Shown here: positions 26,457 to 32,714 of the stretch, piece by piece
Position numbering within the stretch: position 1 is the stretch's first letter
Layout: each line of letters begins with the position of its first letter
Made by a program: the position numbers and the translations under genes
The notes under the pieces: model-generated
Seen by the model: the letters and a program-made list of their open reading frames with translations, nothing else
Databases searched by the model: none
What the model was told of the DNA's origin: nothing
DNA from: Pseudomonadota bacterium
GTDB lineage: Bacteria; Pseudomonadota; Gammaproteobacteria; Xanthomonadales; Ahniellaceae
Reading direction: 5' to 3'
NCBI GenBank assembly: GCA_022705045.1
Contig: JAKJFE010000017.1
Location: forward strand, 1 to 34,892
DNA length: 34,892 bases

Positions 26457-28706
26457 TCACGCGCGCGCGATCGCCTCGACCTTCTGGTAGCCGCGCGGCA
26501 GCAAGGCACCACGAGTGGCGCGGGCGGCCGCGATCTCGACGAGATCGGACCAGGAACGCTTGAGCGGACGACCGCCGGCAGTGACGATCACGTCCGCGCC
26601 TTCCGGGATCACGACCAGATCGATCAGGCGTTCGCCGGTCGCGAAACTCTTCTTCGGGATGTCGATCAGCTTGTTGCCCTTGCCGCCCTTGTCGAGTTCC
26701 GGCAGTTCCGCGACCGAACACATCAGGATGTAGCCGGCGCTCGTCACCGCGACGATGCGATCACGCGCCGAGTCGCTGCACACCGACACCGCGGATACCT
26801 TCGCGCCATCGGAAAGCGACACCAGCGCCTTGCCGGCCTTGTTGCGCGAGATCACGGCGTCGAATTTGGTGACGAAGCCGTAACCGAAGTTCGTCGCGAT
26901 CACGAGTTTCTGCTCGGCATCGGCGATCGCGACCGCGTCGAAGCGCGCGCCGGCCGGCGGCGTGAAGCGACCGGTCAGCGGTTCGCCATTGCCGCGCGCC
27001 GACGGCAGGGTATGCGCCGGGGTGGTGTAGGCACGGCCTTCGGAGTCGATGAACACGACCTGCTGGTTCGACTTGCCGCGCGCATAGGCGAGCAGGCTGT
27101 CGCCTTCGCGATACGAGAGGTTCGCCGCATCGACTTCATGCCCCTTGGCCGAACGCGCCCAACCCTTTTCCGACAGCACGATGGTGACGGCTTCGGCCGC
27201 GACGAGATCGGATTCCGACAGCGCCTGCGCGGCGCCGCGTTCGATCAGCGGCGAGCGACGCTTGTCGCCGAAGGTCTCGGCGTCCTTCTTCAGTTCGTCC
27301 TTGACCAGGGCGCGCAGGCGATCCTTCGATTTCAGCGTGCTGACGATGCGTGCACGTTCTTCCTCGAGTTCGTCCATCTCGCCGCGGATCTTCATCTCTT
27401 CGAGGCGCGCCAGTTGTTTCAGGCGCGTATCGAGGATGTAGTCGGCCTGCGTTTCGCTGAGCTTGAAGCGCGCCATCAGCACCGATCGCGGCTCGTCCTC
27501 GGTGCGGATGATGCGGATCACCTCGTCGAGATTGAGATAGGCGATGCGCAGACCTTCGAGCAGGTGCAGGCGCTTTTCGACCTTGTCGAGGCGGTACTGC
27601 AGGCGCCGGCGCACAGTGTCGGTGCGGAAGCTCAGCCACTCGCTCAGGATGGTCTTCAGCGGCTTCAACTGCGGCCGGCCATCGAGGCCGATCACGTTCA
27701 TGTTGATGCGGAAGCTCTTCTCGAGATCCGTGGTCGCGAACAGATGGCCCATCAGCTCTTCCGCATCGACGCGGTTCGAGCGCGGCACGATGACCAGTCG
27801 CACCGGGTTCTGGTGGTCGGACTCGTCGCGCAGGTCCTCGACCAGCGGCAGCTTCTTGGCGCGCATCTGGTTCGCGATCTGTTCCAGCACCTTGGCCGGC
27901 GAGACCTGATGTGGCAGCGCGGTGATGACGATGTTGCCGTCCTCGCGCGTGTACACGGCGCGGGCCCGCACCGCACCGTTGCCGGTTTCGTACATGGCGA
28001 TCATCTCGTTGCGCGAGGTGATGATCTCGGCTTCGGTCGGATAGTCCGGGCCCTTGATGTGTTCGCAGAGGTCGCGCGTCGTCGCCTCCGGATCATCGAT
28101 CAGGCGCATGCACGCCGCAGCGACCTCGCGCAGGTTGTGCGGCGGGATGTCGGTGGCGAGGCCGACGGCGATGCCGGTGGTGCCATTCAGCAGCACGTGC
28201 GGCAGGCGCGCCGGCAGCCAGTTCGGTTCTTCCAGGGTGCCGTCGAAGTTCGGGCCCCAGTCGACCGTGCCCTGGCCGATTTCGTCGAGCAGGACCGCCG
28301 AAAGCTTAGTCAGCTTGGCTTCGGTGTAACGCATCGCCGCGAAGCTCTTGGGGTCGTCCGGCGAGCCGAAATTGCCCTGGCCCTCGATCAGCGGATAGCG
28401 GAACGAGAACGGCTGCGCCATCAGCACCATCGCTTCATAGGCCGCGGAATCGCCATGCGGATGGAACTTGCCGATCACGTCGCCGATGGTGCGCGCCGAT
28501 TTCTTCGGCTTGGACCCGGCATCCAGCCCGAGTTCGCTCATCGCGTAGATGATGCGGCGCTGCACCGGCTTCAGGCCGTCGCCGACGAAGGGCAGGGCGC
28601 GGTCGAGCACGACATACATCGAATAGTCGAGGTAGGCGCGTTCGGCGTAGTCCTTCAGCGGGATCTGTTCGAAGCCGGGGAAGCTGGGGCGGGCGGGGTC
28701 GGTCAT
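26457..28706 (-). CDS. parC: DNA topoisomerase IV subunit A
   Basis: ParC cuts and rejoins DNA to unlink daughter chromosomes, with ParE (not in the window). The 749-residue protein begins [24 protein letters not shown], carries [26 protein letters not shown] and the catalytic Tyr127 in [11 protein letters not shown]. Ser87 and Glu91, the positions equivalent to E. coli Ser80 and Glu84, have the quinolone-sensitive form. The C-terminal half has the degenerate beta-pinwheel repeats typical of ParC. Its length fits ParC and not GyrA (about 870), which has a GyrA-box here absent. It follows a promoter at 28733-28760. Confidence 0.96.
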
Positions 28707-28864: not shown

Positions 28865-31399
28865 ATGCTGCTTCGTCATCCGGTGCTCGCCGCCGCTGTC
28901 CTGCTGTCTTGCGCCTCCGGCGCCTTTGCCTGCACCAGTGCCGGTGACCTCTGTCTCAATGAAGTCCAGACCTATGGCACTGGCAGTCCGAGCGCGCGTC
29001 GTGCGACCCAGTATCTGGAGCTGCGCGGCCCCGCCGGTGCCAGCATCGCCAGCGGCACCTATCTGGTCGCCGTGGATGGCGACCGCAACCAGAATCCCGG
29101 AACGATCGACGTGGTGATCGATCTGTCCGGCAAGAGCTTGGGCAGCAACGGATTCCTGGTGTTGCTCGCGCAGGGCAACGGCTACACCGTCGACGCCGGC
29201 GCCAGCAGCCTCGTCAGTACCGCCAGCGGGTTCTCCGGCATCAGCGGCTGGTCGGGCAACACCGGCGCGGTGGCGTTCGAACGACCCAGCACCTCGTTCT
29301 TCCTCGTCAGTGCGGCATCGGCCCCGACGCCTGGCACCGACATCGACACCGTCGGAAGCAATGACGGCGTGCCGGACGGCAGCGTCTTCGCGGGCTGGAG
29401 CGTGCTCGATTCGGTGGCCATTGCCGACAACAGCAGTGACAAGACCTATGCGGCACTGAACTTCCGGCCGAATGCCGGCAGCACCGGCACGACGGTCGTG
29501 TTGTCCGGGCGGACGTGGTACGCAGGCCGGTTCGGCGACTCCTTCGGTTCGACCGCCGGCGCCTGGGTTGCGAGTTCGAACCTAGGCGGCAGCAATCCGA
29601 ATTACCTGTTGTCGACCACGGCGGTCAGTCCCGTGGGCGTCGGCGGCAAGCCGCTCAACCATGTGGGCGCGACCAACCTCTGGGCCAATCTGGCGCCGGT
29701 GAATGTGCTGCCGAGCGCCCCCGGAACGAACGAGGACCAGAGCCTGATGCTGACGCTTGGCGTCTCCGATGGCGACGCCGGCACGGCGAGCCTGACCCAG
29801 CAGTTGTCCGTCGATGTCGGCACCTTGTCGCTTGGCGGCACGGCCGGACTCACGTTCGATGCCGGTGCAGACCACAGCGCCTCGATGACGATCACTGGCA
29901 GTCTGGCGGCGCTCAACAATGCGCTGAACGGATTGACTTTCGTACCGCCGGCCAACTTCAACGGCAGCGCGACGCTGTCGATCAGCACGAACGACAACGG
30001 CAACACCGGTAGCGATGGCGCGAAGAGCGACAGCGACACGATCGCGCTGACGATCACGGCAGTGAACGATGCGCCTTCGTTCTCCGTCGGTGCAAACCAG
30101 ACGGTAGCGTCGGATGCAGGCGCGCAATCGGTGCCGATGTTCGCGACGGCCCTGTCGGCCGGGCCGGCCGACGAGAGCGGCCAGCCCCTCGATTTCATCG
30201 TCAGCAACGACGCGAACGGCTTGTTCACCACGCAGCCGGCCATCGCCGCCGACGGCAGCTTGAGTTACACGCCAGCGGCCAGTTTCACCGGCACCGCGAC
30301 CGTGACGGTGCAGATCCACGATGGCGGCGGCACCGGCAATGGTGGCGTCGACACGTCGGCGAGCCAGACCTTCACGATCACGACCACGGCACCCTCGACG
30401 CCGGCGACGGTGACGTCGATCGTCGACAACGACGCCGACGACCTGTTGCCGCTGAACGGTACCGTCACGTTCGACGTGAACTTCTCGCGCAATGTCGACG
30501 GCGCCAGTGCAGCGGCCGGCGACTTCTCGTTCACCGGCACCGCTACCGCAACCATCGACAGCGTGACCATCGTCGACAGCGACACCGTACAGGTTGGCGC
30601 GACCGCGACCGCCGGCGGCACGCTGGTGCTGAGCCTGAGCGGTGAAGTGCTCGACACCTTCGCGATGGCCGTGACGACGGCCGCCGACGACACGACGCTG
30701 ACCGTCGACGCGATTGCGCCAACCCTGGGCAGCGTGGTGCGCGAAACGGCGAGTCCGACCAATGCCGCGACCGTCGATTTCACCTTCACCTTCTCGGAAG
30801 ATGTGGGCACCGTCGACTTCAGCGACTTTGAACTCGGCAGCACCGGTGTGACCGGTGCATTCATCGGCTCGCTCAACGGCTTGGGCTCGGTCTGGACGGT
30901 CAATGTCAATACCGGCACCGGCGACGGTGCCGTCGCCGTCGGCCTGGCCGCAGGCATGACCCTGCAGGACAACGCAGGCAATGTTCTGGTGCCATCGACG
31001 CTGTCCGCCATGTACACGATCGATCGCACCGCGCCGCTGCCGGTCGGCATCACCAAGCTTGATTCGGACAACCCGACGATTCCTTACGTGCGCTGGCAGA
31101 TCGAATTCGATGAAGCGGTGACCGGTGTCGGACTCGGCGACTTCGGTCTGATCATGTCCGGTGGCATCGACGACGCGATGATCATCGGCGTCAGCGGCGC
31201 CGGCACGACCTGGGTGGTCGACGTGTACACCGGCCTCCACAGCGGCACGCTCAGTTTGCGCCTGTTCAACGACGACGCAATCATCGACATCGCCGGCAAC
31301 GTCCTCGGTGCGGGCCTCGATAGCCCGACCTATACGATCGACGCGCAGGCGCTGATCCCGGTCTTCAAGGACGGATTCGAAACGCCACCGGGCCCCTGA
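28865..31399 (+). CDS. Large secreted multi-domain protein (lamin-tail-like, Ig/cadherin-like repeats)
   Basis: The 844-residue protein has a signal peptide (cleavage near AFA-C at about 22-23). Next comes a region from about 30 to 270 that resembles a lamin-tail domain: LCLNEVQTYG, QYLELRGPAG, GTYLVAVDGDRNQNPGTIDV. From about 280 on there are at least four Ig/cadherin-like units, marked by NEDQSLMLTLGVSDGD, NDAPSFSVGANQTV, NDADDLLPLNGTVTF and DFTFTFSEDVGTVDF. The C-terminus ends IPVFKDGFETPPGP. The domains suggest binding or structure outside the cell; no catalytic motif was seen. A GGGGAAACC sequence precedes the ATG. I recall the end motif F-x-DGFE from many exported proteins of Lysobacterales, but its role is not established. 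The gene is divergent from parC. Confidence 0.85.
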   Translation: MLLRHPVLAAAVLLSCASGAFACTSAGDLCLNEVQTYGTGSPSARRATQYLELRGPAGASIASGTYLVAVDGDRNQNPGTIDVVIDLSGKSLGSNGFLVLLAQGNGYTVDAGASSLVSTASGFSGISGWSGNTGAVAFERPSTSFFLVSAASAPTPGTDIDTVGSNDGVPDGSVFAGWSVLDSVAIADNSSDKTYAALNFRPNAGSTGTTVVLSGRTWYAGRFGDSFGSTAGAWVASSNLGGSNPNYLLSTTAVSPVGVGGKPLNHVGATNLWANLAPVNVLPSAPGTNEDQSLMLTLGVSDGDAGTASLTQQLSVDVGTLSLGGTAGLTFDAGADHSASMTITGSLAALNNALNGLTFVPPANFNGSATLSISTNDNGNTGSDGAKSDSDTIALTITAVNDAPSFSVGANQTVASDAGAQSVPMFATALSAGPADESGQPLDFIVSNDANGLFTTQPAIAADGSLSYTPAASFTGTATVTVQIHDGGGTGNGGVDTSASQTFTITTTAPSTPATVTSIVDNDADDLLPLNGTVTFDVNFSRNVDGASAAAGDFSFTGTATATIDSVTIVDSDTVQVGATATAGGTLVLSLSGEVLDTFAMAVTTAADDTTLTVDAIAPTLGSVVRETASPTNAATVDFTFTFSEDVGTVDFSDFELGSTGVTGAFIGSLNGLGSVWTVNVNTGTGDGAVAVGLAAGMTLQDNAGNVLVPSTLSAMYTIDRTAPLPVGITKLDSDNPTIPYVRWQIEFDEAVTGVGLGDFGLIMSGGIDDAMIIGVSGAGTTWVVDVYTGLHSGTLSLRLFNDDAIIDIAGNVLGAGLDSPTYTIDAQALIPVFKDGFETPPGP

Positions 31400-31460: not shown

Positions 31461-32714
31461 ATGAGCCCACCTGACATCGCATTGCGACCGCGCGCGGTCG
31501 TTCCCCTGCTCGCCGCCCTGGCGATGTTCGGGCCGTTCACGATCGATACGTTCTTCCCGGCCTTCGCCGAAGTGGCCGCGAGCCTGCATGCCAATCCGTG
31601 GCAGATGCAGCAGACCATCAGCGCCTATCTGCTCGGTTATGCGCTGATGTCCTTCGTGCACGGACCGATGTCGGACGCGCACGGGCGACGCATCGTCATC
31701 CTGTTCGGCGTGACCAGCTACATCGTCGCGTCGATCGTCTGCACGGTCGCGCCGAACATCGAAACCCTGCTGGCGGCGCGCTTCTGGCAGGGCTGTTCGA
31801 CCGGCGCAGGCATGATTGTCGGTCGCGCCATCATCCGCGACCGCTTCCATGGCGGCGACGCGCAGCGGGTCATGGCCTGGGTGTCGATGCTGTTCGGCAT
31901 CGCGCCGGCGCTGGCACCGCTGGTCGGCGCGCTGATCCACAGTGTCGCGAGCTGGCGCGCGATCTTCGCCTTCATGGTCGTCTACGGCGCGCTGATGCTG
32001 TGGGCCTGCCTGCGCGTGCTGCCGGAAACACATCCGCCGGAACGGCGCGTGCCGCTGCGCCCGCGATCCCTGGTTGCGACCTATCGGCGTATCGCGATGG
32101 ATCGCGCTTTCGTGCTCTGGGTCGGGGCCACCGGCCTGTTCTTTGGCGGGCAATTCATCTACATCAGTTCGGCACCGGTGTTCATCGAACGGTTTCTCCA
32201 GCTCGGCGACTTCGGATACGCGTGGTACTTCGTGCCGACGATCGCCGGCATGACCGCGGGGTCGGCGCTGTCGGCGCGCCTGGCGGCTGAAACCAGCCCG
32301 GCACGGTGCGCGAATATCGGACTGCTGGTGATGGTCGCGGGGCAGGTGATCAACCTCGCCTACAACGCCGTGACTGCGCATCCACAAGTGCCCTGGGCGG
32401 TGTTGCCGTTCGCGCTCTACGGCTGCGGCGTGTCGTTGGCGACGCCGCCGATCAATGTCGCCACGCTCGATCGTCATCCGCTGCATCGCGGCGCTGCGGC
32501 CTCGGTGCAGTCGGCGATGTGGAGTCTGATGATGGTGCTGGTTTCCGGCTTCGCGGCACCGCTCGCCCATGACACGCCGATGCACCTGGCGCTCGGTTCA
32601 TTCGCGTTCTGGATCGCTGGCGCGCTTTGCCTGTGGCTCGGTCCGCACATCGTTTTCCTGCATGCGCCGACACGCGAGGATGCGGCAGAATCTGAGCTCG
32701 AGGAGCCGGTCTGA
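31461..32714 (+). CDS. Bcr/CflA-type MFS drug exporter
   Basis: The 417-residue membrane protein has 12 likely membrane helices. The family marks are FGPFTIDTFFPAF in helix 1, QQTISAYLLGYALMSFVHGPMSD, the MFS motif DAHGRR after helix 2, and ARFWQGCSTGAGMIVGRAIIRD in helix 4. Bcr/CflA carriers export drugs and amino-acid-like compounds using the proton gradient; the substrate here is unknown. A TATGCT -10-like box is at 31431-31436, 24 bases before the ATG, without a clear -35. The stop is nine bases before the pirin start, so the two are probably co-transcribed with the following permease. Confidence 0.88.
   Translation: MSPPDIALRPRAVVPLLAALAMFGPFTIDTFFPAFAEVAASLHANPWQMQQTISAYLLGYALMSFVHGPMSDAHGRRIVILFGVTSYIVASIVCTVAPNIETLLAARFWQGCSTGAGMIVGRAIIRDRFHGGDAQRVMAWVSMLFGIAPALAPLVGALIHSVASWRAIFAFMVVYGALMLWACLRVLPETHPPERRVPLRPRSLVATYRRIAMDRAFVLWVGATGLFFGGQFIYISSAPVFIERFLQLGDFGYAWYFVPTIAGMTAGSALSARLAAETSPARCANIGLLVMVAGQVINLAYNAVTAHPQVPWAVLPFALYGCGVSLATPPINVATLDRHPLHRGAAASVQSAMWSLMMVLVSGFAAPLAHDTPMHLALGSFAFWIAGALCLWLGPHIVFLHAPTREDAAESELEEPV

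Follow-up and report, generated by a model that had tools for sequence, protein, structure and literature searches.

A short DGFE tag on exported proteins of Lysobacterales co-occurs with a second type II secretion system

The window, by which we mean the whole stretch of 34,892 nucleotides that was analysed, is contig C90 of a 3.35-Mb genome that consists of 242 contigs and is 86% complete. Positions 28865 to 31399 of its forward strand form an open reading frame (ORF) whose translation is an exported repeat protein of 844 amino acids. The protein begins with a predicted Sec signal peptide of about 22 residues (MLLRHPVLAAAVLLSCASGAFA; 28865 to 28930, +), which scored 3.95 with our crude scorer and whose cleavage site was placed by eye. 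A Pfam profile match to Big_9, an Ig-like or cadherin-like repeat, covers residues 401-504 (30065 to 30376, +; 4.1e-06) and passes the Pfam cut-off, and a match to the NCBIfam tandem-95 family (7e-09) falls under the NCBIfam cut-off. At the C-terminus (PVFKDGFETPPGP), the residues VFKDGFE (31361 to 31381, +), recognised from the sequence and from the genome-wide and cross-genome pattern, constitute what we call the tag, and they are followed by TPPGP (31382 to 31396, +), which sequence and tail comparison identify as a variable extension. This confirms the F-x-DGFE end after Ig-like repeats proposed in the initial annotation. When the sequence was read directly, no membrane helix or basic tail was present after the motif. 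The genes beside the tagged gene, which by eye are topoisomerase IV subunit A-like (26457-28706, -) and MFS transporter-like (31461-32714, +), have no visible link to the tag.

DGFE is encoded 84 times in the window's genome and the reversed-pattern control 10 times, and its abundance is therefore not due to chance. The window site and the surroundings of the other 83 sites were screened for nearby stop codons; in 41 of the 84, a stop follows the D within 12 codons. We judged 36 of these 41 by eye to be tag-like, that is, to follow [ILVM]-[FLYM]-x-DGFE-x0-5 or nearly so, with at most five residues beyond the tag; the other five are in L033, L054, L055, L063 and L070. Patterns that include the stop were matched 24 times (F-x-D-[G/S]-F-E-stop) and 26 times (F-x-D-x-F-E-stop), versus 0 in each control. 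In the stop-containing patterns, the stop was written as TRR, which also admits TGG (Trp); a few matches of the wider pattern in the 80-genome search described below are of this kind.

At 20 of these 24 F-x-D-[G/S]-F-E-stop sites, all in fetched stretches, GAA and GAG are each used 10 times, GGC, GGA, GGG, GGT and AGC all occur, as do all three stop codons, and the 30 bases after the stop have no sequence in common. Because synonymous codons vary freely and the 3' flanks are unrelated, selection acts on the tag peptide and not on a DNA repeat, and a DNA repeat was ruled out as the source of the tag. An origin of the tag as a relic without function, or from a DNA element that spreads and terminates genes with identical codons, would agree with its patchy distribution described below, but it is largely excluded by this codon pattern and by flanking DNA that is not shared. 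Reversed controls giving 0 or 1 match per strand, and the retention of the tag, or of a sequence close to it, at M36-like ends from different families (8/10, see below), also speak against such an origin, which we regard as extremely improbable.

Among the ORFs of the same stretches, 25 of 26 tagged and 98 of 283 untagged ones scored for a signal peptide (Fisher p 3e-10) with a single scorer that is our own, crude and lenient, as the 98 untagged ORFs that pass its threshold illustrate. Since the scorer is lenient, the evidence lies in the fraction and in no single score. A score of at least 3.0 was reached by 29 of the 36 tag-like proteins of the window's genome; of the other seven, those of L016, L053 and L068 are cut by a contig end, that of L079 has only 55 aa and no usable start, and both L066 proteins and that of L077 score 2.4-2.9. 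Hence, DGFE endings do occur on many exported Lysobacterales proteins, as had been suggested in the initial annotation, and the motif is neither rare (84 versus 10) nor common outside signal-peptide proteins, to which it is nearly confined according to this crude scorer.

Apart from the tag, these proteins are unrelated. When 32 of them were aligned, only the D, G, F and E of the tag, the start methionine and two scattered glycines were invariant. Their Pfam contents, with 25 of 29 families listed, include FG-GAP, subtilase, M28, M36 (one of the 32 proteins), DUF11, Ig-like, Calx-beta and glucose dehydrogenase-like domains, among others. The NCBIfam matches, with 25 of 34 families listed, include 'rhombosortase-', 'myxosortase-' and 'T9SS-dependent' M36 peptidases, a LapA-type aminopeptidase family (two members) and choice-of-anchor families, whose relatives, by their names, bear other surface-sorting tails. 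No stand-alone sorting-signal model was among these 25 of 34 families for the 32 whole proteins, and 10 tails of 40 aa from the window's genome gave 0 NCBIfam matches at E values up to 10. Searches of open-licence PMC texts yielded no description of the tag, in agreement with the earlier view that it is undescribed.

In the M36-like peptidases and the choice-of-anchor families, the tag takes the position of known surface-sorting signals. It might thus be a surface-sorting or anchoring tag with its own dedicated receptor or enzyme, in which case the second type II system described below (type A) would merely be lost together with it, or would carry tagged and untagged proteins alike. A docking peptide would suit placement at either end of a protein, and the Acidobacteriota form of the tag occurs without a GspD over the cut-off (see below). 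However, in the parts of genomes that were covered, no recurrent untagged neighbour resembles a processing enzyme, and we consider this reading rather unlikely. Clustering of the neighbour ORFs in the fetched stretches, some of them from tag-poor genomes, revealed no adjacent partner gene near the tags. By eye, the recurrent untagged neighbours resemble TPR-bearing Ser/Thr kinases, ECF sigma factors, ABC proteins and dehydrogenases, and none of them has the look of a processing enzyme. ECF sigma factor-, TPR Ser/Thr kinase- and winged-helix regulator-like genes recur near tagged genes (e.g. in L239, L116, L199 and L249), an observation made in tag neighbourhoods only. Thus, of the shared signal peptide and partner gene that had been suggested for the motif-ending proteins, the former was found and no adjacent gene of the latter kind was seen, the best candidate partner being the second type II system.

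C-terminal signals on signal-peptide proteins that cross the outer membrane are also known from type IX secretion in Bacteroidota, where they are folded domains of about 80 residues, whereas the conserved part of the DGFE tag comprises about 7 residues directly after unrelated domains. The tag resembles the PEP-CTERM/exosortase, LPXTG/sortase and MYXO-CTERM/myxosortase systems in being a genome-wide C-terminal signature on exported proteins. These signals are reported to be tripartite and to consist of a motif, a helix and a basic end (PMC3237569 for LPXTG and PEP-CTERM; PMC11980579 for MYXO-CTERM), whereas the DGFE tag ends the protein or precedes a short variable extension. We read 40 tail candidates of the window's genome by eye and saw no helix or basic cluster after the tag; the tag-like ends among them stop at FE or at most five residues beyond. 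The distinction from PEP-CTERM-like and LPXTG-like signals drawn in the initial annotation is therefore borne out. With GlyGly-CTERM/rhombosortase, the tag shares the presence of one short C-terminal signature on many unrelated signal-peptide proteins per genome and a sporadic distribution, with some families swapping tails (Haft and Varghese 2011, PMC3237569); PMC13393428 ties GlyGly-CTERM to type II secretion in Vibrio. The DGFE tag differs from it in having no membrane helix or basic cluster and in not always being terminal; moreover, a rhomboid partner was not seen for it, and its candidate partner is a secretion machine.

The Lysobacterales tag can be written as [ILVM]-F-x-D-G-F-E, followed by a stop or a short variable extension. 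Tails end at the E in 21 of 32 cases in the window's genome and in 53 of 83 from other fetched loci, and P is the commonest last residue of the extended ones. A D stands three residues before the F in 50 of these 83 tails, a set that comes from loci nearly all, though not certainly all, of Lysobacterales and that was partly picked by FADGFE/FGDGFE, which biases its x position. The 38 tails of a Thermoanaerobaculia genome (L100, G625; Acidobacteriota) have a long form, about FxDGFE-SG-[DN]-T-xx-W-S-A-T-V-P, with the W at the seventh place after the E in 34 of them. Three consecutive tagged genes of this Thermoanaerobaculia genome (L223:2863-7250, +) all end in the long form cut at W. The pattern F-x-D-[G/S]-F-E-x-G matched in 29 of 80 genomes, mostly alongside the short form; G010, G057 and G037 have single long matches without a short one, and G064 has one of each.

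The motif is also found soon after the signal peptide (L221, L228, L213, L214, L222, L198 and, in the window's own genome, L029) and between domains (L216, L207 and, in the own genome, L060). In L060 (7118-9112, +), it sits in the linker that connects a part with weak similarity to esterases to a GH18 chitinase-like domain. In view of these placements and of the variable residues after FE, the C-terminal sorting or capping tag suggested in the initial annotation is supported as a shared tag, and not as a strictly C-terminal one or a cap. A simple cap is disfavoured because the internal and N-proximal motifs show that a free C-terminus is not required. Prolines, which end 24 of 38 Acidobacteriota tails and 4 of 11 (window's genome) and 10 of 30 (other loci) extended tails, would fit a stabilising cap against periplasmic or secreted carboxypeptidases, but the tag is far more specific than a cap requires, occurs internally and after signal peptides, and is limited to certain lineages, and we regard this function as quite improbable.

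Matches to TTYNNNGAYRGNTTYGARTRR were present in 101 of 299 sampled genomes of the order Lysobacterales, with up to 39 per genome; some of the 198 genomes without a match use a variant. Reversed-pattern controls gave the low counts cited above. All 10 genomes of the window's family contain the tag, and its distribution is patchy inside families f2, f7, f9 and f12. Bearers include Chiayiivirga flava, Pseudofulvimonas gallinarii, Dokdonella, Tahibacter, Aquimonas and MAGs. In the rest of the class, FxDGFE is near background, with no more than 7 copies in any of 317 genomes (the class-wide set comprised 321, 4 of them from Lysobacterales). Among 199 Acidobacteriota genomes, three are rich in the long form and hold 81, 95 and 95 copies, and the others 0-11. 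The attribution of the tag to Lysobacterales hence holds for its many members there, and not as a confinement to that order, many of whose genomes are without a match.

The small exported proteins of the tag-rich Acidobacteriota bear on a further possibility, namely that the tag might be the lone first beta-strand of a jelly-roll that docks into a partner jelly-roll devoid of that strand. By eye, the L198 and L312 motifs (FADGFETGDTSAW, FADDFETGDTSAW) open a domain resembling a jelly-roll, and small exported relatives begin right after the strand in L309 (G656) and L310 (G793), which belong to tag-rich Acidobacteriota; none of 15 tag-negative Acidobacteriota matched the jelly-roll query. However, among 25 tag-positive Lysobacterales the same query matched in G018 and G019 alone, its sole match in the third tag-rich Acidobacteriota genome, G625, was the motif only, the stretches fetched from the window's genome contained no relative, and Pfam gave no match for the domain. 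With matches in only 5 of 68 genomes, a jelly-roll receptor was rejected as the universal partner, and the sequence comparisons make the strand-docking reading as a whole appear unlikely. L309:1396-2100 (+), L310:1351-2106 (+) and L316:1399-2199 (-) encode small L198-like proteins with signal peptides in tag-positive genomes; they start just after the FxDGFESGxxxW place and are candidate strand-accepting partners.

The M36-like peptidases allow the same kind of C-terminus to be followed across genomes. Of 20 loci examined, 17 yielded an ORF with an HExxH-like site, and we inspected the C-terminal ends of these ORFs. In G004 and G017 the ORF is truncated at the edge of the stretch, and the G649 match lies outside the catalytic part. 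The tag or a near variant ends 8 of the 10 closed M36-like ORFs of tag-positive genomes, across families: FTDGFE in the window's genome, FRDGFETLTQ (G236), FADGFESD (G090), FADSFDLVP (G041), FADRFESGR (G162), HIDGFES (G043), FRDSFE (G003) and FSSSFGHGDFAHWSTSVP (G625). The two exceptions are G018, which ends in FFIGNFE, and G280, which has no tag and whose frame contains an internal stop. The M36-like ORFs of the tag-negative Acidobacteriota G667, G692 and G704 have no tag. The M36-like end HFDRFEELL of G123, a genome then counted as negative, led us to the DRFE variant.

We ran the wider pattern F-x-D-x-F-E-stop over 80 genomes. In genus g14 (family f9), 15 of 19 matches have DRFE, the other four having S, Q, A and F, and in G037 (f12), 5 of 7 have DDFE, with R and P once each. 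Our first pattern missed DRFE with its R encoded as CGN and made g14 look mostly negative, and the genus was positive with the wider one. From 20 fetched stretches, five g14 genomes yielded 15 distinct proteins ending in DRFE or DRFEQ, 12 of which have a signal-peptide score of at least 3.3. Such a concerted change of one residue across unrelated proteins of a lineage suggests that each genome has a single reader, the alternative being that the tag was copied from gene to gene. Other lineages may have further variants. Together, these data give good support to the view that the tag is a portable recognition peptide. Some of the Lysobacterales bear it on between a few and about 40 unrelated Sec-exported proteins in each genome.

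The strongest partner signal came from a test of type II secretion that we had begun as a check on a rival explanation. The tag-positive and tag-negative genome sets were fixed ahead of the secretin search. Among the matches listed (E to about 1e-51), all 25 tag-positive Lysobacterales have two copies of GspD over the TIGR02517 cut-off, and of 25 tag-negative ones, 22 have one, G063 two, G074 three and G010 none. At least two GspD are thus present in 25/25 versus 2/25 genomes (Fisher p 5.6e-12, uncorrected for kinship). The contrast between tag-positive and tag-negative genomes recurs within families f2 (2/2 versus 1/11), f12 (5/5 versus 1/10) and f7 (1/1 versus 0/4). With the wider F-x-D-x-F-E-stop pattern, 24 of the tag-negative genomes have no match and G068 has one, and the tag-negative G010 and G057 have the one long-form match each given above; weak positives are G018, with one short tag plus long forms, and G060, with two DRFE sites. 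None of the three tag-rich Acidobacteriota has a GspD over the TIGR02517 cut-off among the matches listed; they may have a diverged secretin.

A tree of 40 fetched GspD sequences, which holds a minority of the single copies from tag-negative genomes, falls into two deep groups, Xps-like and what we call type A. All 19 fetched second copies from tag-positive genomes are in the type A clade (100/99, 21 rows); six further tag-positive genomes stand outside the tree and are known by GspD copy number alone. The Xps-like clade has 18 rows, 10 from tag-positive and 8 from tag-negative genomes, and a below-cut-off GspD of G075, whose branch is very long, is placed next to it. The type A side also holds the long-branched GspD of the tag-negative G063 (L353) and G229 (L339), which group together and whose systems possibly form a separate, Xcs-like lineage. 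Gene order, with names assigned by eye, is E-F-...-D in Xps-like loci and gspC-D-E-F in type A loci. Since type A sequences group by family, tag and system seem to have been passed on jointly and to have disappeared jointly from most of f2, f12 and f7, and we infer about three independent losses behind the co-occurrence.

From this co-occurrence, the type A system is the most likely reader of the tag. We tentatively favour, at somewhat less than even odds and on comparative sequence evidence, the interpretation that [ILV]-F-x-D-[G/S/R/D]-F-E is a portable recognition signal for this second, PDZ-bearing type II system. A tagged protein would cross the inner membrane by means of its signal peptide and then fold; an extracytoplasmic component of the type A machine, perhaps the GspC PDZ domain, would bind the exposed tag at the chain end or in a linker, and the protein would leave through the type A secretin. 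The cargo fits type A secretion, as it consists of folded exported enzymes, including an M36 protease and matches to LapA-type aminopeptidases, LapA being a type II-secreted protein according to the title of PMC5904407. Against a type A reader, co-occurrence is not mechanism and would reflect few independent losses, the three tag-rich Acidobacteriota lack a GspD over the cut-off, and the tag-negative G063 and G229 have a related system. The tag bears on substrate choice in type II secretion, and it offers a natural experiment, with two type II systems in one cell and one tag tracking one of the two secretin types. If the type A reading is true, some of the proteins that these little-studied bacteria secrete would be recognisable from sequence alone, and the tag could possibly serve as a compact export tag in biotechnology.

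Within the type A machine, we infer that the PDZ domain of GspC is the best single candidate reader. According to PMC12369372, which deals with signals such as the VesB Ig fold, GspC PDZ domains are required for some type II substrates and the information is graftable; there, the signals are held to be structural and not linear, whereas a short linear tag is proposed here. Were such a tag read by the GspC PDZ, it would contradict the view of type II signals as structural only. That a short linear peptide is a transferable type II signal, read by this domain and co-evolving with it by lineage (DGFE, DRFE, DDFE), strikes us as possible but doubtful, and tags after signal peptides or between domains misfit the ordinary binding of PDZ domains to a free C-terminus.

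Matches to both T2SSC and PDZ were found in 12 of 12 aligned type A GspC members, with PDZ_2 above the Pfam cut-off in that of the window's genome; in the other seven type A loci, gspC was found via tblastn and a PDZ-like end was read by eye. The protein before gspD in Xps-like loci matched neither T2SSC nor PDZ in the seven of seven tried, and the GspC proteins of the tag-negative G063 and G229 gave weak PDZ matches (E about 2e-5) under the Pfam cut-offs. In a post hoc comparison of charge where the PDZ groove helix begins, as placed by eye, four acids are present in both DRFE genomes and none in the DDFE genome; the DGFE genome G116 (four) and G016 (none) are counter-cases, and the acids did not track the tag cleanly. 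The predicted structure of the window genome's GspC (mean pLDDT 72.7, pTM 0.34) has two well-predicted parts, and the model matches structures of the EpsC and PulC PDZ domains as well as of GspC homology regions. By eye, the type A locus often lies near thioredoxin- and FtsX-like genes.
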